Assembly: GCF_000429545.1 (NCBI RefSeq) | Contig: NZ_AUCB01000026.1 | Location: 1-64,000, forward strand | DNA: 64,000 nt | DNA from: Arenibacter certesii DSM 19833 | GTDB taxonomy: Bacteria > Bacteroidota > Bacteroidia > Flavobacteriales > Flavobacteriaceae | Direction: 5' to 3' | Shown here: one piece after another, positions 15,642 through 37,713 of the stretch | Layout of the letters: each line of letters opens with the position of its first letter | Position numbering within the stretch: position 1 is the first letter of the stretch | Notes under the pieces: model-generated | Told to the model about the DNA's origin: nothing | What the model saw: the letters and a program-made list of their open reading frames with translations, nothing else | Database searches by the model: none | Position numbers and translations under genes: made by a program

Positions 15642-18600
15642 TTGGACAATTACCAGCAAATACTGAATAAGCTTAATGCCTTTACCACAAAATACTACAC
15701 TAAAAGGTTACTTAAAGGAGTATTGTTATTTTTAGCGTTAGGCCTATTTTTCTTCCTTTTAATATTGGGTATAGAATATTTTTTCTGGTTAAATTCTATA
15801 GGAAGGCTACTATTACTAGTATTGTTTATCTGTTCAGAACTATTCCTACTGGTTCGGTTCATTATAATTCCTCTCATATATCTTTTCCGATTAAAAAACG
15901 GACTAACTTATAAACAAGCATCGCTATTAATCGGCAAACATTTTAAGGAAATTGATGATAAATTATACAACTTAATAGATCTAGCTGAAAATAGAAATAA
16001 GTCCGAACTATTATTGGCAAGTATAGACCAAAGATCAGATAACCTAACTGTTATTCCATTTGTTAAGGCCATAAACTTAAATGAAAGCATTAAGTATTCT
16101 AAATACTTAATAATCCCAATATTTCTCTTCATAATGATATGGATCTTTGGAGATGTAGCATCTTTTTTAGGCTCCTACAAACGAGTCGTGAATTATGATA
16201 TGGCCTACGACCCCCCTACGCCATTTTCCTTTCATCTCCTTACTTCAGATTTAAATGTGTTGGATAACGAGCCTTTTATCATCCAAATCACTACAGAAGG
16301 AAAAATTAAACCAGAAGGTATAACAATGCTCATGGAAGGAAAAGAATTTATATTACAGGAGCAGAACGGGTTATACCAATACGTTTTTTCTCCTCCAATA
16401 AAATCCACCACATTCTCTTTTTCCGCTAATGGAGTTAAATCCAGAAGGTATAGGCTAAATGTACTAAACACGCCAACTATGGAGGATTTTGAAATGCAGA
16501 TGATTTTTCCTTCCCATACCAAAAAGTCTCGTGAGATAATAAAGGGTACTGGTAATGGCACTATTCCTGAAGGAACCAGAATGGAGTGGAAGATAAACTC
16601 ATTACACACCACAAATGTAAACTTCACCACAGAGGACACATTATATAATTTTATTAGAAAAGATAATCTATTCCATTTTCACCAAAAAGTATATAATGAT
16701 TTAAACTATACCATATCAGCGTCCAATTTAGCTGTAAAAGATTATGAAAAACTTGGTTATTCCCTAACAGTTATCAAAGATGCATTTCCTACCATACGCG
16801 TACAACAGATTTTAGATTCCATAAATCCCAATATTTCCTACTACAGGGGAGAAGCAACAGATGACTATGAGTTAAGCAACATCCGATTGGTATATTATCC
16901 CTCGGATGATAAAGCGTTGGCTAAGGTCTTAGGAATCTCCAAACCCGAACAAAATTATGATTCATTTTATTACACTTTTCCTTCCGGTTTAGCTCTAGAA
17001 CAGGGAAAGGAGTATAGCTTTTATTTTGAAGCCCTAGACAATGACGGCGTAAACGGCTCTAAATCAACTAAGAGTCAGGTTTTCACGACTCAAATCTTAA
17101 AGGATAATGAGCTTTTAGATCGGGATATAAAGGCTAAAAAGGATATTCTTTCCAATATGGATAGAAGTATAGAAAAATTTAAGCAACAACAAACCTCCTT
17201 GGAGCAATTAAAGAGGGAACAAAAAGAAAAAGAGCGCTTAAGTTTTAATGATAAAAATAAAATTCATGATTTTCTTAAAAAGCAAGAGCAACAGGAGCAA
17301 CTAATGAACCGTTTTAGAAATGAACTAAAAGAAAACTTACAACGAACCAATAAGGAAGATAAGAAGAATAAATTACTTCGAGAACGATTAGAACGCCAAG
17401 AAATTGAAGCCAGAAAGAACGAAAAACTCTTAGAAGAGTTAAAGAAACTCTCCGATAAAATAAATAAAGAGGAACTAACCAAACGGTTAGAAGAAATGGG
17501 AAAAAACCAAAAAAACAGTCAGCGTAACTTAGAACAATTGTTAGAATTGACCAAAAGGTATTATGTAGAAGAGAAGGTAAATCAATTGGGAGAAAAACTA
17601 AAAGAATTGAGTAAGGCGCAAAAATCCTTGGCGGAAGAAAACTTAGAAAATAAAAATCTAATTAATGAACAGGAAAACCTAAATAAAAAATTTGAGGAAA
17701 TCTCCGAGCAATTAGAAGAAGTACAAAGAGACAATGAAAGTTTAAAAAAGCCAATGACTTTGGAAATTGACAAAACCAAAGAAGAGTCGATTAAAACGGA
17801 CCAAAAAAATGCTTTAGAAGAACTCGGGAAGGACCAAAGTAAAAAAGAAGCTGAAAATAATAGGGAAATCAGCAATACAAATAAAGCAAAATCCCAGCAA
17901 AAATCTGCTGCCCAAAAAATGAAAGAAATGGGAGAGCAATTACAACTATCGGCTGGGAGTTCTGGAGCATCGGATGTTATGGAAGATTCTCAGGTATTAC
18001 GCCAAATATTAGATAACCTCTTGCATTTTTCATTTCAGCAAGAGGAACTACACCACAATTTAGCGGAAGTGGATATCACCTCAAATCTTTTTAGCGGCAC
18101 TTTAAAAAGACAACAAGAACTAAGAGAATTATTCAATCATGTAGATGATAGTTTATTTGCGCTTTCCTTAAGGCAAATAGAAATTTCCGAATTAGTAAAC
18201 AAGCAGATTACGGAAGTATATTATAATCTAGACAACACCTTAGAAAGTTTAGCGGAAAGTCAATTTCACAAAGCATCCTCCGATCAAAAATATGTTTTAA
18301 CGGCAACCAATGAATTAGCTGATCTTCTAGCATCCATTTTAGAAAATATGCAACAGCAAATGCAATCTGGTTCAGGGGGTGGAGGTGGCGGACCTGAATT
18401 TCAATTACCAGATTTAATCCTAGGTCAGCAAGAGCTGCAGGAGAAAATGGAGGGATTAGGAAAGCAATCAAAGAAGGACGGCGAAAAAGGTGAAAATGGC
18501 CAAAAAGGAGAAAACTCTCCTGGAGAAGATGGTAATTCCAAAGAAGGTAAAAAAGGTCAGCCTAAAGTACAAGGGCAAGGTACTTCAGAAGGAGAAGGTA

Positions 18601-19076
18601 ATAGCCCAAATGGCAAAAATGGAGAAAACAGCAAGAATGACAATAATCCAAGTGAAGCAGAATTACAAGAGATTTATGACCTCTACAAGGAACAGCAAAG
18701 ATTACGCGAACAGTTAGAAAATCAATTAAACTCCCTGCTCAATAATGAGGAGCGCACATTAGGGGAGAAATTAGCGAAACAAATGGAGGAATTTCAGAAC
18801 CAGTTGTTAGAAAATGGGATCACCCAAGAGACTTTAAGTCAGATAAACAATATCAATTATGAATTGCTGAAATTGGAGAATGCCACAATGAAACAGGGCG
18901 AAAAAGAAGAAAGGGAAAGTCGCACTGCAGACGATAGATTTCAAAATCCGTTATTAAGTACTCCTGAGGTCTTCAAGAAAACTAATATCGATGTCGATAT
19001 TTTAAATAGACAAGCCTTACCTTTGCGGCAAACTTATAAGAACAAGGTAAAGGAATATTTTAAAAGCGATGATTGA
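15642..19076 (+). CDS. DUF4175-family large membrane-anchored coiled-coil protein
   Basis: A 1144-residue protein starting at a TTG codon (15642). There is no in-frame ATG nearby, and a near-consensus TATCTTGG lies 18 bp upstream. Three N-terminal membrane segments (about 24-46, 52-77 and 170-190) are followed by a beta-rich periplasmic region (about 200-490), a long Glu/Lys/Gln coiled coil (about 495-745), a helical region and a Gly/Ser/Lys/Asn low-complexity linker (about 910-1000) that partly repeats G-x-x triplets such as GEKGENGQKGEN. This is the Bacteroidota DUF4175 architecture, of unknown function. The gene overlaps ybeY by 8 bp and heads an operon with ybeY and mnmG. Confidence 0.8.
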   Translation: MDNYQQILNKLNAFTTKYYTKRLLKGVLLFLALGLFFFLLILGIEYFFWLNSIGRLLLLVLFICSELFLLVRFIIIPLIYLFRLKNGLTYKQASLLIGKHFKEIDDKLYNLIDLAENRNKSELLLASIDQRSDNLTVIPFVKAINLNESIKYSKYLIIPIFLFIMIWIFGDVASFLGSYKRVVNYDMAYDPPTPFSFHLLTSDLNVLDNEPFIIQITTEGKIKPEGITMLMEGKEFILQEQNGLYQYVFSPPIKSTTFSFSANGVKSRRYRLNVLNTPTMEDFEMQMIFPSHTKKSREIIKGTGNGTIPEGTRMEWKINSLHTTNVNFTTEDTLYNFIRKDNLFHFHQKVYNDLNYTISASNLAVKDYEKLGYSLTVIKDAFPTIRVQQILDSINPNISYYRGEATDDYELSNIRLVYYPSDDKALAKVLGISKPEQNYDSFYYTFPSGLALEQGKEYSFYFEALDNDGVNGSKSTKSQVFTTQILKDNELLDRDIKAKKDILSNMDRSIEKFKQQQTSLEQLKREQKEKERLSFNDKNKIHDFLKKQEQQEQLMNRFRNELKENLQRTNKEDKKNKLLRERLERQEIEARKNEKLLEELKKLSDKINKEELTKRLEEMGKNQKNSQRNLEQLLELTKRYYVEEKVNQLGEKLKELSKAQKSLAEENLENKNLINEQENLNKKFEEISEQLEEVQRDNESLKKPMTLEIDKTKEESIKTDQKNALEELGKDQSKKEAENNREISNTNKAKSQQKSAAQKMKEMGEQLQLSAGSSGASDVMEDSQVLRQILDNLLHFSFQQEELHHNLAEVDITSNLFSGTLKRQQELRELFNHVDDSLFALSLRQIEISELVNKQITEVYYNLDNTLESLAESQFHKASSDQKYVLTATNELADLLASILENMQQQMQSGSGGGGGGPEFQLPDLILGQQELQEKMEGLGKQSKKDGEKGENGQKGENSPGEDGNSKEGKKGQPKVQGQGTSEGEGNSPNGKNGENSKNDNNPSEAELQEIYDLYKEQQRLREQLENQLNSLLNNEERTLGEKLAKQMEEFQNQLLENGITQETLSQINNINYELLKLENATMKQGEKEERESRTADDRFQNPLLSTPEVFKKTNIDVDILNRQALPLRQTYKNKVKEYFKSDD

Positions 19077-19488
19077 TTATCACTATTTAACGGATTTTCA
19101 GATAGACAATGAAGCCGAGTACAGCGATTGGATAGATAGGATTATAATTTCAGAAAATGCTACTCAAGGTCAACTAGATTTTATTTTCTGCGACGATGAA
19201 TATCTTCTTAAAATAAATCAGGATTATTTACAGCACGATACATTTACAGATATTATAACCTTCCCATATGGGGACGATCAAAATATAGCTGGAGACATTT
19301 TCATTTCAGTTGAGCGTGTTCGGGAAAACGCAAAGACATTCAAGGTAGAATTTGAGTCGGAATTGCGACGAGTTATGTCTCACGGCATTCTTCATATGTT
19401 AGGTTTTGGCGATAAAAACGACCAAGAAATCCAGTTGATGAGAGAAAAGGAAAACGAAAAACTAAAATTGTTCCACGTGGAACACTAG
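19069..19488 (+). CDS. ybeY: Endoribonuclease YbeY (16S rRNA maturation)
   Basis: A 139-residue zinc-dependent endoribonuclease family involved in 16S rRNA 3' maturation and ribosome quality control. The family motif is seen as MSHGILHMLGFGDKND. The two HGxLH histidines are present, but the third ligand position of the common HGxLHLxGyDH motif is Asp rather than His, a variant I believe is usual in Bacteroidota. FTDIITFPYG and AGDIFISVERV are the other conserved blocks. Its start overlaps the DUF4175 gene by 8 bp and mnmG begins 6 bp after its stop. Its last codons (FHVEH) are formed by a perfect parS-like palindrome. Confidence 0.93.
   Translation: MIDYHYLTDFQIDNEAEYSDWIDRIIISENATQGQLDFIFCDDEYLLKINQDYLQHDTFTDIITFPYGDDQNIAGDIFISVERVRENAKTFKVEFESELRRVMSHGILHMLGFGDKNDQEIQLMREKENEKLKLFHVEH
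19469..19484. other. parS: parS-like ParB binding site 1, inside ybeY 3' end
   Basis: TGTTCCACGTGGAACA is a perfect 16-bp palindrome. It matches the known ParB site (TGTTTCACGTGAAACA in B. subtilis, GTTCCACGTGGAAC core in Pseudomonas) in all but the symmetric T/A to C/G pair. It encodes the FHVE part of the YbeY C-terminus. Only two copies were found by eye in the window, 1.96 kb apart. Confidence 0.85.
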
Positions 19489-19494
19489 AGAAAT

Positions 19495-21363
19495 ATGTTC
19501 GACAAAGTATACGATGTTATAGTAGTAGGAGGGGGACACGCAGGGGCGGAAGCTGCAGCTGCAGCAGCTAATTTAGGTTCTAAAACCTTATTAGTTACCA
19601 TGAGCTTACAAAATATAGGACAAATGTCTTGTAATCCCGCTATGGGCGGAATTGCAAAAGGACAGATTGTTAGAGAAATTGATGCCTTAGGCGGATATAG
19701 CGGAATCATAACAGATAAAAGCGCGATCCAATTTAAAATGCTTAACAAAAGCAAAGGTCCCGCAATGTGGAGTCCAAGGGCGCAGTGTGATAGAATGCGT
19801 TTTGCTGAAGAATGGAGAATAGCTCTAGAAAACACACCCAATGTAGATTTCTATCAGGAAATGGTTTCCGGTTTATTAATAGAAGAAAACAAAGTTGTTG
19901 GTGTAAGAACCAGTATGGGTTTAGAAATAAAATCGAAATCCGTTGTTTTAACCAACGGAACTTTTCTGAACGGATTAATCCATATTGGAGATAAACAAAT
20001 GGGTGGTGGTAGATCAGGGGAAAAGGCCTCCACAGGAATTACCGAACAATTAGTAGCATTAGGTTTTGATAGTGGCCGAATGAAAACTGGTACTCCTCCG
20101 AGAGTAGACGGAAGATCGTTAGATTATTCTGTAATGATTCCCCAACCAGGTGACCTACATCCAGAAACTTTTTCTTACCTAGACACCAAACCACTTGCCA
20201 CACAAAGAGAATGTCATATGTCTCATACCAGTGCGCTTGTTCACGATTTATTGAGAGAAGGTTTTGATAGATCTCCTATGTTTAATGGCAGAATCAAAAG
20301 TTTAGGTCCAAGATACTGTCCGTCCATAGAAGATAAAATAAATCGTTTTGCAGACAAGGACAGTCACCAACTGTTTGTTGAACCAGAAGGGTGGAATACC
20401 GTAGAGGTGTATGTAAACGGATTCTCTACATCACTACCAGAAGATGTTCAATTTAAAGCATTGCGCTCCGTAAAAGGATTTGAAAAAGTAAAATTCTTTA
20501 GACCAGGATACGCAATTGAATATGATTATTTTCCTCCAACCCAATTAAAACATACCTTAGAAACTAAATTAATAGACCACCTTTATTTTGCAGGACAGAT
20601 CAACGGAACAACCGGATATGAAGAAGCAGCCTCCCAAGGTTTAATGGCTGGAATAAATGCTCACCTTAAATTAAATGAGAAAGATCCATTTATTCTACAG
20701 AGAGATGAAGCTTACATTGGAGTATTAATAGATGACCTTATAACTAAAGGCACAGAAGAACCCTATAGAATGTTCACTTCAAGAGCAGAATATAGAACAC
20801 TGTTAAGGCAAGATAACGCAGATTTAAGACTAACTCCTAAGAGCTTTAAAATTGGTTTAGCTACAAAAGAAAGAATGGAGAGAATGGAGTTAAAAGAAAA
20901 ACAATCCAATTCTTTTATACAGTTCTTTAAAGAAACAAGCTTCTCACCAGAAGAAGTAAACCCAATATTAGAACGACTAGATTCTTCCTTGGTTAAACAG
21001 CCAGATAAAATGTTTAAGGTCTTTTCTAGACCTAAAGTCACTATGGACCACATGAAGGAATTAGATGTAGTATCTACCTATATTAACCAAAACAGTTTAG
21101 ATAGGGAAGTGTTAGAGCAAACGGAAATTCAAGTTAAATACTCTGGGTATATCGCTAAAGAAAAAAACAATGCCGATAAACTTCAGCGTTTAGAAAACAT
21201 AAAAATTCCAGCAGATTTCGATTACAGTAATATTAAATCTTTGTCTTTTGAAGCAAGAGAAAAGCTAAAATCAATAAAGCCAATTAGCATTTCACAAGCA
21301 TCAAGAATTAGCGGAGTATCTCCAAGTGACATAAGTGTCCTTCTAGTTTATATGGGTAGATAG
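19495..21363 (+). CDS. mnmG: tRNA uridine-5-carboxymethylaminomethyl modification enzyme MnmG (GidA)
   Basis: FAD-dependent enzyme that, with MnmE, installs cmnm5 at wobble U34 of certain tRNAs. The 622-residue length is normal. It has the Rossmann FAD motif VIVVGGGHAGAEAAAAAANL at residues 7-26 and the family blocks SCNPAMGGIAKGQIVREID, TGTPPRVDGRSLDY and GYEEAASQGLMAGINAHLK. The C-terminal helical MnmE/tRNA-binding domain (about 550-622, ending SGVSPSDISVLLVY) is intact. It is third in the DUF4175-ybeY-mnmG operon and is bracketed by two parS-like sites. mnmG is often near chromosome origins, which fits the candidate origin 15 kb away. Confidence 0.97.
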   Translation: MFDKVYDVIVVGGGHAGAEAAAAAANLGSKTLLVTMSLQNIGQMSCNPAMGGIAKGQIVREIDALGGYSGIITDKSAIQFKMLNKSKGPAMWSPRAQCDRMRFAEEWRIALENTPNVDFYQEMVSGLLIEENKVVGVRTSMGLEIKSKSVVLTNGTFLNGLIHIGDKQMGGGRSGEKASTGITEQLVALGFDSGRMKTGTPPRVDGRSLDYSVMIPQPGDLHPETFSYLDTKPLATQRECHMSHTSALVHDLLREGFDRSPMFNGRIKSLGPRYCPSIEDKINRFADKDSHQLFVEPEGWNTVEVYVNGFSTSLPEDVQFKALRSVKGFEKVKFFRPGYAIEYDYFPPTQLKHTLETKLIDHLYFAGQINGTTGYEEAASQGLMAGINAHLKLNEKDPFILQRDEAYIGVLIDDLITKGTEEPYRMFTSRAEYRTLLRQDNADLRLTPKSFKIGLATKERMERMELKEKQSNSFIQFFKETSFSPEEVNPILERLDSSLVKQPDKMFKVFSRPKVTMDHMKELDVVSTYINQNSLDREVLEQTEIQVKYSGYIAKEKNNADKLQRLENIKIPADFDYSNIKSLSFEAREKLKSIKPISISQASRISGVSPSDISVLLVYMGR

Positions 21364-21415: not shown

Positions 21416-21453
21416 AAAATAGCTAATGTTCCACGTGGAACATTAGCTATTTT
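21416..21453 (+). terminator. 38-bp perfect palindrome, mnmG terminator built around parS
   Basis: Both 19-nt arms (AAAATAGCTAATGTTCCAC and its exact complement) are perfect, centred at 21434/21435, with A-run and T-run ends as in an intrinsic terminator 53 bp after the mnmG stop. The central 16 bp is the parS-like site. Confidence 0.7.
21427..21442. other. parS: parS-like ParB binding site 2, downstream of mnmG
   Basis: Identical to site 1 (TGTTCCACGTGGAACA), noncoding, at the centre of the 38-bp palindrome. Its recurrence 1.96 kb from site 1 argues against chance. Confidence 0.85.
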
Positions 21454-34447: not shown

Positions 34448-36640
34448 CTAGTTCTTTTTCCCCAATAAGGAAAAATCCAAATGACGCTTAACTAGGTCGG
34501 TACTTTTAACCATAACGATCACCTCGTCTCCTAATTGATATGTCTTATTGGTTTTTTGACCAACAATAGCATACTCCTTTTCATCAAATGTATAGTAATC
34601 ATCCTTTATGTCTCTAATACGGATCATTCCTTCACATTTATTCTCTATAATCTCCACATAAAGGCCCCATTCCGTAACCCCAGAAATAACTCCTACAAAT
34701 TCGCGATCCTTATGGTCTTCCATAAATTTAATCTGCATGTATTTTATGGAATCTCTTTCGGCATTAGCGGCCAAACCTTCCATATTGGAAGAATGCTTAC
34801 ATTTTTCTTCGTATGTAGCTGCCTTAGCAGAATTACCACCATCCAAATAGTGTTGTAATAATCTATGTACCATAATATCTGGATACCTCCTAATTGGCGA
34901 AGTAAAATGGGTATAATAATCAAATGCCAATCCATAATGACCAATATTATCAACGGTATAAATGGCTTTGTTCATACTACGGATGGCCAAGGTATCAACC
35001 AAATTTTGTTCCTTTTTCCCTTTAACATCCTCTAGAAGTTGGTTTAAGGAACTGCTAATGGATTTTTTATCCTTAAAATTCAGTTTATGCCCGAAACGCG
35101 AAATTATTCCGTTTAAGGCCATTAATTTGTCCTCATCTGGTTCTGGGTGCACTCGGTATACAAAAGTTTTCTCTGGTTTTTGCTTACCTATAAACTGGGC
35201 TACTCTTCTATTGGCGAGTAGCATAAATTCCTCAATCAATTTATTGGCATCTTTGGACTCTTTAAAGTAAACACCTTCGGGTTCATTATTTTCATTCAAA
35301 TTAAAACGGACTTCTACCTTATCAAAAGAAATAGCGCCTTCCTTCATTCGTTCAGAACGCATAATCTTGGCAAGCCTATCCAGTGTTAATGTGGCTTGTA
35401 CCACTTCATCATCTACTGTATAAGCCTCATCCCTAATAGAAATCTCCTTACTTATATTTCCATCATGGGTTTCTATAATATACTGAGCTTCTTCATAAGA
35501 GAATCTTTCATTGGATTCAATAACCGTTCGTCCAAACCATTCTTTTTTAATTTTGGCATTAGTATCCAACTCAAAAACTGCAGAAAAGGTATATTTTTCT
35601 TCGTTCGGTCTTAGGGAACAAGCATTGTTAGACAACACTTCCGGTAACATAGGAACTACCCTGTCTACCAAATAAACAGAGGTTGCCCTATTATATGCTT
35701 CATCATCTAAGATGGTATCTGGCGTTAAGTAATGCGATACATCGGCAATATGGATTCCAATCTCATAATTTCCATTTTCTAGAACGGTAAAAGAAAGCGC
35801 ATCATCAAAATCCTTGGCATCCTTTGGATCAATAGTAAAAGTAAGGCTATCACGCATATCCCTTCTTTTCGCTATTTCCTCCTCTTTTATAGAAGTATCC
35901 ATTTTATTGGCAAACATCTCTACTTCTACTGGAAACTCGTGAGGTAATCCATATTCAGCTAAAATAGAATGAATTTCAGTATCGTGCTCACCTGGTTTAC
36001 CTAAAACTTGAATAATACTACCAAACGGTGAATCGGCATTGTCCGGCCACTCTTTAATTTCTACAATTACTTTATCCCCATCTTTAGCCGTAGATAACTT
36101 ATCTTTTGGAATAAAAATATCGGTATACATTCTATAATCCGTAGGGCGAACAAAGGCAAAATCTTTTTGCATATCCACGATTCCCACAAAAGAAGTTTTA
36201 AAACGAGATATTATCTTGGTAATCTCCCCTTCTAATTTTTTTCCTTTTCTTTTTGGAAAAATATAAACCTCTACCTCATCTTTATGAAAGGCTTTTTTTA
36301 GTTTATTGAATGGAACAAAAACATCGTCATCTATACCTTCAACTAGTATATAGGCATTACCCCTTCCTGTTATATCTACTTTTCCGTTATGATAGGTTTT
36401 GGTACTCGCAATAGCCTTATAATTCCCTTTTCCTTCTTCTTGGATCCTCCTTTTTTCCTTTAATTGGACTAAACGCTTTATTAGATTATTTCTATCGCTA
36501 GCATCCGTTATACCAATCTTAGCCGCTATTTGTTTATAGTTAAAGGTTTTTTGAGGTTCCTTTTCTAGAACAGTAAATATACCTTTGGTTATTTCGTTAT
36601 TTCTGTGATTTTTGATTTTCTTCTTACTTTTTGACATCAA
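34448..36640 (-). CDS. rnr: Ribonuclease R
   Basis: A 730-residue 3'-5' exoribonuclease that degrades structured RNA and mRNA fragments. In order: a basic N-terminus, a winged-helix domain (about 14-70), two cold-shock OB domains (about 75-230), and an RNB catalytic domain (about 260-590) with IDPKDAKDFDDALS giving the metal-binding aspartates and HFTSPIRRYPDIMVHRLL near its end. A C-terminal S1 domain (about 640-725, EFVGVISGVTEWGLYVEI) completes it. Either of two adjacent Met codons can be the start. It borders the candidate replication origin and is transcribed away from it. Confidence 0.97.
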   Translation of the reverse strand: MMSKSKKKIKNHRNNEITKGIFTVLEKEPQKTFNYKQIAAKIGITDASDRNNLIKRLVQLKEKRRIQEEGKGNYKAIASTKTYHNGKVDITGRGNAYILVEGIDDDVFVPFNKLKKAFHKDEVEVYIFPKRKGKKLEGEITKIISRFKTSFVGIVDMQKDFAFVRPTDYRMYTDIFIPKDKLSTAKDGDKVIVEIKEWPDNADSPFGSIIQVLGKPGEHDTEIHSILAEYGLPHEFPVEVEMFANKMDTSIKEEEIAKRRDMRDSLTFTIDPKDAKDFDDALSFTVLENGNYEIGIHIADVSHYLTPDTILDDEAYNRATSVYLVDRVVPMLPEVLSNNACSLRPNEEKYTFSAVFELDTNAKIKKEWFGRTVIESNERFSYEEAQYIIETHDGNISKEISIRDEAYTVDDEVVQATLTLDRLAKIMRSERMKEGAISFDKVEVRFNLNENNEPEGVYFKESKDANKLIEEFMLLANRRVAQFIGKQKPEKTFVYRVHPEPDEDKLMALNGIISRFGHKLNFKDKKSISSSLNQLLEDVKGKKEQNLVDTLAIRSMNKAIYTVDNIGHYGLAFDYYTHFTSPIRRYPDIMVHRLLQHYLDGGNSAKAATYEEKCKHSSNMEGLAANAERDSIKYMQIKFMEDHKDREFVGVISGVTEWGLYVEIIENKCEGMIRIRDIKDDYYTFDEKEYAIVGQKTNKTYQLGDEVIVMVKSTDLVKRHLDFSLLGKKN

Positions 36641-37278
36641 CTCTTTAATTTTTGGAAAATTACGAATTTATATCCATTGTCTTTCTATTCCGTTTTAGAA
36701 GTTAGAAATTCTTGTTATCAACATTTATAATATATATATATTTCTTTTTTCTAAAATTTAAAAAAAAATGCTTGTTATGATAGTGTGTTAATAGGGGACA
36801 TAATTATTTCACTTAATACTTGCTTCGAGTAGATTTGGAAGTTTATCGACATCTTATGGACTATTGATTTGTATATAAATCAATAGGTTGACTTAGTTAT
36901 CAACACTTATTGATAACCTTGTTGAACATGAAATTAGTGATAAGTAAAATTTAAATTACTGTTAATTACTTCTATTTAACGTTTGATATCTTTTAATGAT
37001 ATTTGAAAAGTAAATTATTAATCTTCCTTATTATTTTGTAAGGCAAAATTTAAATGGATTTTAAAAATTTTAAAGTTACTTTTTGTCGGTAGTTTATCAA
37101 CAATTAACACAATTTATTAAACCACTAAATAACAACAGCTTTACGTTTTTTCTTAATTAATGTTGTTAACAACCCAAATAACGTTGTGAAACCATAGGTA
37201 TTTGTACATTTGTACACCTCCATGTAGGTAGTAATAAACGTTTTAAACATTATATAATCTAAAATTAACTATAAAAGG
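36641..37278. other. oriC: Candidate replication origin region (oriC-like)
   Basis: A 638-bp AT-rich gene-free stretch lies between divergent rnr and rpiB. Exact DnaA-box-like TTATCAACA occurs at 36715-36723, 36897-36905 and 37094-37102, with near-matches TTATCGACA at 36843-36851, TATTGATAA (reverse) at 36908-36916 and TGTTGTTAA (reverse) at 37161-37169. Immediately right of the first box is a long A/T tract (36724-36768, including TATATATATATTT), a plausible unwinding element. Two parS-like sites lie 16-17 kb to the left. In many bacteria the origin is marked by clustered DnaA boxes, an AT-rich element and nearby parS. dnaA itself is not in the window. The rpiB promoter occupies the right end. 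Confidence 0.6.
37205..37212 (+). promoter_or_regulatory. -7 promoter element for rpiB
   Basis: TACATTTG is an exact TAnnTTTG match, with a TTG at 37184-37186 about 18 bp upstream in the -33 position. The leader would be about 60 nt. Confidence 0.6.
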
Positions 37279-37713
37279 ATGAAAATAGCCGTTGGTAATG
37301 ATCACGCGGGAACTGAATACAAGTTTGCGATTGTTGAACTGTTAAAATCTATGGATTTGGAAGTCGTTAATTATGGTACGGATAGTTCAGAAAGTGTAGA
37401 TTATGCAGATTATATACATCCAGTGGCAAGTGATGTGGAAAATGGAAACGCAAATCTAGGTATTATAATTTGTGGAAGCGGTAATGGGGCCTCAATGACA
37501 GCTAACAAACACCAAAAGATTAGAGCTGCGCTATGTTGGAATACAGAAATTGTAAAATTAGCCAAGGAACATAATAATGCCAATATTTTAAGTTTGCCAG
37601 CACGTTTTATTTCCCTGCCTCAAGCTTTGGATATGGTAAAAACGTTCTTAAATACTCCCTTTGAGGGTGGCCGACATGAAAAACGAATAGAAAAAATACC
37701 TACCTGTTCGTAA
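37279..37713 (+). CDS. rpiB: Ribose-5-phosphate isomerase B
   Basis: A 144-residue RpiB/LacAB-family sugar-phosphate isomerase of the pentose phosphate pathway. MKIAVGNDHAGTEYK (phosphate and ring-opening Asp/His), VVNYGTDS and IIICGSGNGASMTANKHQKIRAA (catalytic Cys and anion-hole loop) are all present, and AREHNNANIL-type sequence (KEHNNANILSLPAR) follows. It is the first gene to the right of the candidate origin and is transcribed away from it, followed after 71 bp by an ElaA-type acetyltransferase. Confidence 0.95.
   Translation: MKIAVGNDHAGTEYKFAIVELLKSMDLEVVNYGTDSSESVDYADYIHPVASDVENGNANLGIIICGSGNGASMTANKHQKIRAALCWNTEIVKLAKEHNNANILSLPARFISLPQALDMVKTFLNTPFEGGRHEKRIEKIPTCS

Follow-up and report, generated by a model that had tools for sequence, protein, structure and literature searches.

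The 638-bp intergenic spacer between rnr and rpiB (positions 36641 to 37278, without strand; 23% G+C) is, with a probability of about 93%, the chromosomal replication origin oriC of this genome, far from dnaA. The window, i.e., the whole stretch of 64,000 nucleotides that was analyzed, comes from an Arenibacter genome (G000; 83 contigs, 4.99 Mb). The closest named rnr proteins are from Arenibacter, with 86% identity, and this genus belongs, together with Tenacibaculum, to the family Flavobacteriaceae. An oriC at rnr/rpiB and away from dnaA had been proposed from the sequence of the window (the original prediction), and it is supported by third-codon-position (GC3) skew, conserved boxes and parS proximity. 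The box cluster, its conservation, the skew switch, the proximity of parS and the distance to dnaA are all computed features of the genomes described below.

For Tenacibaculum, Ori-Finder put the origin right next to rpiB in six of seven circular chromosomes, and not far from this gene in the seventh (PMC9864904). The two cases thus share the neighbor gene rpiB and an origin predicted by software; the Tenacibaculum account, in the portion available, is Ori-Finder output, whereas the box analysis, the parS sites, the family-wide comparison and the DnaA residue come from the present analysis. The position had been called not obvious from standard models. It does lie away from dnaA, but because Ori-Finder had already predicted it for Tenacibaculum (PMC9864904), it is less unexpected than claimed. 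In the open-license literature, we found no earlier account of the precise spacer, its family-wide conservation or the parS link, and no earlier report of the altered box or its link to a DnaA residue. The available portions of five other papers (PMC13342612, PMC4759079, PMC5219744, PMC5306329 and PMC6128925) bear on neither the box nor the place of the origin. What appears to be new is above all the altered box and the DnaA residue, the location being known already as a software prediction.

A DnaA-box cluster in the rnr-rpiB spacer

The spacer is bordered on the left by rnr (34448 to 36640, − strand), which codes for ribonuclease R with RNB, S1 and cold-shock domains, and on the right by rpiB (37279 to 37713, + strand), so that both genes point away from it, as the original prediction had it. 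The three exact copies of TTATCAACA on which that prediction was built are present as predicted DnaA boxes at 36715 to 36723 (box 1), 36897 to 36905 and 37094 to 37102, all on the + strand and within a span of 388 bp. Of the 17 genus spacers, 16 carry box 1 unchanged, and the remaining one (L011) reads TTATGAACA in the alignment. The second box is TTATTAATA in many genus rows, and the third is TTGTTAACA in most. Three DnaA-box-like elements accompany them: TTATCGACA at 36843 to 36851 (+ strand; TTATTGACA in most genus rows), TTATCAATA at 36908 to 36916 (− strand, inverted relative to the box at 36897 to 36905; TTGTCAACA in many genus rows), and TTGTTAACAA at 37163 to 37172 (without strand), which consists of two overlapping inverted TTGTTAACA boxes and is TTGTTAATAA in many genus rows. 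The same positions therefore hold box-like variants across the genus (TTATCAACA, TTGTTAACA, TTGTCAACA, TTATTGACA and TTATTAATA), and such letter changes at fixed positions are as expected if binding, rather than the exact sequence, were conserved. The alignment also holds eight non-genus rows, most of which were hand-picked because they contain a first box; the presence of box 1 in them is therefore no evidence.

The A/T-only tract reported beside the first box was recovered at 36724 to 36743 (without strand) and is followed by a T-rich stretch. Together they form a candidate DNA unwinding element, a hallmark of origins that is present here, next to the boxes, as sequence. The AT-rich, T-rich profile 3′ of box 1 is seen in 38 spacers. 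In the basal unwinding system of Bacillus subtilis, a box is likewise followed by an AT-rich tract (PMC10721633). The DnaA-trios of that system are a repeated trinucleotide with a central A (PMC10721633), whereas no three-base periodicity of A was found 3′ of box 1 in the 38 first-box sequences.

Allowing one mismatch at most, 6 of the 53 TTATCAACA sites of the window fall in the 638-bp spacer, in agreement with the near matches initially described, and no other 500-bp segment of the window is as dense in sites as the spacer (three exact and three one-mismatch sites). Exact copies number six in the window for 1.13 expected, a count reached in 1 of 100 shuffles; three of them lie outside the spacer (5732 on the + strand, 9524 and 23103 on the − strand), where only one had been noticed. 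The genome as a whole contains 89 exact copies versus 103 for a reversed control pattern. Thus, TTATCAACA has no genome-wide enrichment, and the feature that stands out is the cluster. The spacer trio is the only such cluster among the 89 copies, the next-closest pair being 1.9 kb apart (contig C9), and by arithmetic, chance would yield about 0.002 triples spanning 388 bp or less in the whole genome.

This organization is conserved among relatives. We collected 98 loci, 18 from the same genus and the best 80 named ones by rnr similarity, and found rnr and rpiB in divergent orientation with a spacer shorter than 4 kb in 89 of them, as well as in all nine single-contig genomes. Six of the nine loci without the spacer sit at contig ends, and in the other three (L063, L066 and L093) the 10-kb flank holds no rpiB. 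Spacer length ranges from 275 to 2674 bp over the 89 loci and exceeds 1300 bp in nine. A divergent rnr was also within reach in 21 of 30 further rpiB loci of the family, for which 1.5-kb flanks were read. The conserved intergenic position that an origin should have among relatives is thus observed.

Box density had been proposed as a check on the original prediction. In a motif-free word count, TTATCAACA is the top 9-mer of the 72 non-genus spacers, being found in 40 of them for about 2 expected. The broader pattern TTRTYAACA occurs 84 times in the 17 genus spacers (3.0 expected from a dinucleotide model) and 188 times in the 72 others (13.1 expected), which amounts to a 14- to 28-fold excess across 89 related spacers, and its density is 2.86 per kb in spacers versus 0.16 per kb in flanks totaling 1.43 Mb. 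Five of the nine TTRTYAACA sites of the window lie in the spacer and form its densest cluster. The spacer is also the densest sampled window for boxes in G003, G073, G130, G142 and G148; it is tied in G038 and G085, and the densest one is elsewhere in G049 and G140. The DnaA-box cluster stands well above background.

An origin at rpiB throughout the phylum was considered and rejected. We examined 18 rpiB loci from outside family f1, taken as the best matches among 108 genomes that have the gene. An open reading frame of at least 800 bp lies upstream on the same strand in 12 of them, and 13 lack TTRTYAACA as well as TTRTYCACA over the 900 bp preceding rpiB. The long upstream frames and the missing boxes make the origin position look largely family-specific.

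The altered box and the DnaA recognition helix

The usual consensus of the DnaA box is TTATnCACA (PMC5742627, PMC11511705), and wide conservation among bacteria has been ascribed to this box (PMC11511705). In the 89 spacers, TTRTNAACA is found 340 times versus 32 for TTRTNCACA. Position 6 is thus A where it is normally C, and the canonical box does not prevail. In the window, canonical TTWTNCACA boxes were sought and are not enriched (5 found versus 8.2 expected). TTRTNCACA predominates upstream of rpiB in two genomes of the family, G215 and G106, and accounts for half of the boxes in a third one, G039.

The DnaA residue that parallels these differences occupies the site of Thr435 in the E. 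coli numbering, after the review PMC5742627. When aligned with E. coli domain IV (PDB 1j1v), the DnaA of this genome reads RDHAT for RDHTT, which places Ala at the Thr435 site. The E. coli system thus combines TTATnCACA with Thr435, whereas TTRTYAACA goes with Ala here. In E. coli DnaA, the helix made of residues 434 to 451 reads TnCACA, and a T435M variant is defective in box binding (PMC5742627). The site is occupied by Ala in 60 family genomes and by Ser in 3 (G215, G039 and G106), in a sample of 63 that is enriched for Ser because 30 of its members, among them G215, were the top scorers out of 291. The recognition helix of two family proteins, L326 of G361 and L328 of G145, reads RNHAT, with Asn replacing the Asp of the other family DnaAs that were read. 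Ser is found in most other Bacteroidota read: for 13 of the 14 DnaAs from outside the family, the residue is Ser in nine, Thr in two and Ala in two. The last two are from the related families f6 and f7 and read KDHAT (L315 of G203 and L312 of G207, respectively), so that the residue change may predate the family.

We then paired residue and box in the 25 genomes for which DnaA had been read along with the 900 bp preceding rpiB. The 22 genomes of Ala type hold 10 TTRTNCACA and 87 TTRTNAACA boxes (10 of 97 with CACA). The three of Ser type hold 14 and 5, with CACA:AACA counts of 5:0 in G215, 6:2 in G106 and 3:3 in G039. The CACA fraction ranges from 0 to 0.40 among the 21 Ala genomes that have boxes, G040 being left out because it has none, and is 0.50, 0.75 and 1.0 in the Ser genomes (rank test P = 0.0016, uncorrected for kinship). 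The difference is also seen within genera, with 5:0 in G215 (Ser) versus 2:3 in G443 (Ala), and 3:3 in G039 (Ser) versus 1:5 in G378 (Ala). The gene rnr is beside rpiB in G106 and is not found within 1.5 kb of it in G215 and G039; in the latter two, the first box ahead of the AT tract is TTATCCACA.

A tree was built with the DnaA proteins of 67 of 77 loci, the 10 loci without an extractable protein being left out. The Ser rows are nested in a clade of 11 whose other members are all Ala (support 100/99), and G215 is sister there to G443, of Ala type (100/99). These placements require the residue to have changed at least twice within the clade, for example by a single regain of Ser plus a single loss; a second regain is not required by the tree. 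Exact placement is unsure, as the branches flagged as long include L333 and L309, which represent two Ser genomes out of three. The recognition-helix residue (449, E. coli 435) is Ser in all three Ser rows and Ala in each of the other 51 rows of the family.

The box letter seems to track the DnaA residue among relatives, with three Ser genomes, which suggests co-evolution of DnaA and oriC. The A at position 6 is most simply explained by the Ala that the DnaA recognition helix carries at the Thr435 site, which is the weaker part of our explanation. By a narrow preference, we favor a scenario in which one recognition-helix residue would set box position 6 in the Flavobacteriaceae, the origin having been rewritten from TTATnCACA to TTRTYAACA and then wholly or partly back in at least one, perhaps three, lineages when DnaA regained Ser, as a natural replay of initiator-origin co-evolution. 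It may also be, with a somewhat lower but substantial likelihood, that the change from C to A in the box is unrelated to the DnaA residue, lineage drift and shared ancestry accounting for their agreement. Only three Ser genomes were paired, all from one clade of the tree, and DnaA sites 27, 378 and 423, which are outside the recognition helix as aligned, separate Ser from Ala rows nearly as well as residue 449. The 3:3 count of G039 despite its Ser, and the 2 CACA boxes out of 5 in the Ala-type G443 and G278, also fit drift, as do the spacers of genus g150, which go from CACA only to AACA over 23 of the 26 species with rpiB, DnaA having been read in two of the 23. Drift accounts less well for CACA fractions that do not overlap (at most 0.40 with Ala, at least 0.50 with Ser), for Ser rows nested in an Ala clade where G215 is sister to G443 and the label changes at least twice, and for the E. 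coli data on T435M and the TnCACA-reading helix (PMC5742627). How an essential initiator changes together with its many sites would become directly testable in a family where the box has shifted, with a matching residue and apparent reversions.

Second, short frames of 134 to 186 residues that match the DnaA C-terminal domain are present in addition to full-length DnaA in four genomes (L155 in G160, L156 in G140, L324 in G207 and L325 in G278; L156 is below the family cutoff). Their products are possible extra DnaA-box binders.

Strand composition and parS sites around the spacer

Cumulative GC3 skew in the window is lowest at rnr and rises after rpiB (−0.099 on the left and +0.087 on the right), and total GC skew is weak (−0.041 and −0.004, respectively). 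The skew analysis by which the prediction was to be judged supports it: the minimum of the window is at rnr and relatives mostly switch at rpiB, with exceptions. In the same-genus single-contig genome G003, which was sampled as 20 stretches of 20 kb, GC3 skew is negative in each of the 10 stretches located between −1584 and −11 kb relative to rpiB, positive in each of the 8 between +9 and +2076 kb, and negative in both stretches past the antipode. The sign changes at the spacer, and not near dnaA. Total GC skew departs from this pattern in G003, being positive in 3 of 10 left stretches and negative in 2 of 8 right ones. With 10-kb bins over 400 kb, the cumulative minimum is in the bin 1583001 to 1593000, which ends at the spacer; computed per open reading frame, the GC3 minimum moves 52 kb leftward, and it comes back to rnr once a single 20.6-kb frame is omitted. 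This long frame (G003:C1:1543554-1564214, − strand) shifts the local cumulative minimum by its own skew.

We read 10 stretches in each of eight more single-contig genomes, each of another genus. On the four plus four stretches around rpiB, the GC3 switch is clean in G038, G085 and G130 and has one exception out of eight in each of G049, G073 and G148. Total GC, but not GC3, switches in G142 (left, 4 of 4 negative; right, 3 of 4 positive and one zero), and no clear switch is seen in G140. Including G003, the strand-composition switch expected of an origin is therefore clean in four of nine genomes, present with exceptions in four and absent in one (G140). The stretches that abut the spacer change GC3 sign in G003, G038, G073, G085, G130 and G148, and do not differ in sign in G049, G142 and G140. 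The two stretches nearest dnaA share their GC3 sign in 8 of 8 genomes, one of the two being 48 to 91 kb from dnaA in G085, G130, G142 and G148. The skew of G049 has already turned negative where dnaA lies (+1.66 Mb), so that the terminus of this genome may be off the antipode.

The two parS-like sites that had been placed 16 to 17 kb away were found at 15.2 and 17.2 kb from the spacer. They are exact palindromes of sequence TGTTCCACGTGGAACA (without strand), located just upstream (19469 to 19484) and just downstream (21427 to 21442) of mnmG (gidA; 19495 to 21363, + strand), and they are the only such sites of the 4.99-Mb genome at one mismatch or less. At this threshold, parS is found in 24 of 26 genomes, the two without a site being G140 and G148. 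Of the 23 complete genomes, 21 have parS at 6 to 57 kb from rpiB (at most 57.4 kb), close to the proposed origin. TGTTCCACGTGGAACA is the form that fits here: the Bacillus form, GTTTCACGTGAAAC, has no match with up to one mismatch in the genome of the window and matches in 4 of 18 genus genomes. In 16 of the 18 complete genomes with at least two parS sites, a pair is 1.9 to 2.0 kb apart, and the pair of the window is about 2 kb apart. An open reading frame of 1144 residues next to ybeY and mnmG (15642 to 19076) has no Pfam match at an E value of 0.001.

Position of the proposed origin relative to mnmG and dnaA

In E. coli, mnmG/gidA is beside oriC and dnaA is some way off. The origins of Mariniflexile litorale and Algorimicrobium have been assigned to mnmG (PMC11278836, PMC12843772), which is in the same chromosomal neighborhood as the window, and the former source states that dnaA disagrees with the skew plot. 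In those genomes the origin is put at mnmG; here, mnmG is a parS-flanked neighbor, and the boxes and the skew minimum are at rnr-rpiB. We regard it as very improbable that replication really starts at mnmG or next to it, with the spacer only titrating DnaA in the manner of datA. Such an arrangement would agree with the Ori-Finder origin at mnmG or its neighborhood, as given in PMC12843772 and in the text of PMC11278836 (where a figure legend calls mnmG ter instead), and with the short distance between mnmG and the spacer (15 to 17 kb) and the parS sites on both sides of the gene. Yet the spacer rather than mnmG holds the main concentration of boxes, and the GC3 minimum of the window is at rnr. 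Moreover, the distance between parS and rpiB varies from 6 to 57 kb, and GC3 nevertheless flips at the spacer in six of nine genomes. As whole-genome skew has a resolution of 10 to 20 kb, a shift of 15 kb is excluded mainly by the boxes and by the gene-level minimum.

It is even less probable that the spacer is a long regulatory region for rnr and rpiB, with promoters, leaders or an RNA gene, conserved for transcription: divergent promoters are expected there and the rnr-side blocks are strongly conserved in the genus, but this would leave the skew switch, the parS proximity and the box enrichment unexplained, and promoters can coexist with an origin. An RNA gene was sought in particular, and no Rfam family reaches the cutoff between 36000 and 38000, two weak matches being outside the spacer.

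With the spacer as oriC, initiation may be pictured by analogy with known origins, from which we infer DnaA binding, melting and firing. E. coli oriC shares with it a DnaA-box cluster and an AT-rich unwinding element (PMC5742627). DnaA-ATP, encoded elsewhere on the chromosome, would bind the spaced TTRTYAACA boxes and, starting at box 1, oligomerize over the A/T-only tract next to it. This tract, the likely unwinding element, would then melt and let the helicase load. Forks would depart both ways, co-directionally with rnr and rpiB, and the parS sites 15 to 17 kb away would allow segregation of the new origins.

Adjacency to dnaA is a common, not a defining, feature of origins. Here, dnaA is on another contig than the window, and in all 23 complete genomes it is far from rpiB, at 0.40 to 0.96 of the half-chromosome and at 0.60 or more in 21 (nine chromosome lengths being exact and 14 rounded to 0.1 Mb or bounded). 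In 8 of the 23, the sequence starts at dnaA. If the origin is at rnr-rpiB, genomes started at dnaA would mislead copy-number, growth-rate and skew work. The terminus-proximal location of dnaA in these 23 Flavobacteriaceae may result from ancestry and symmetric inversions, or from selection on dnaA dosage.
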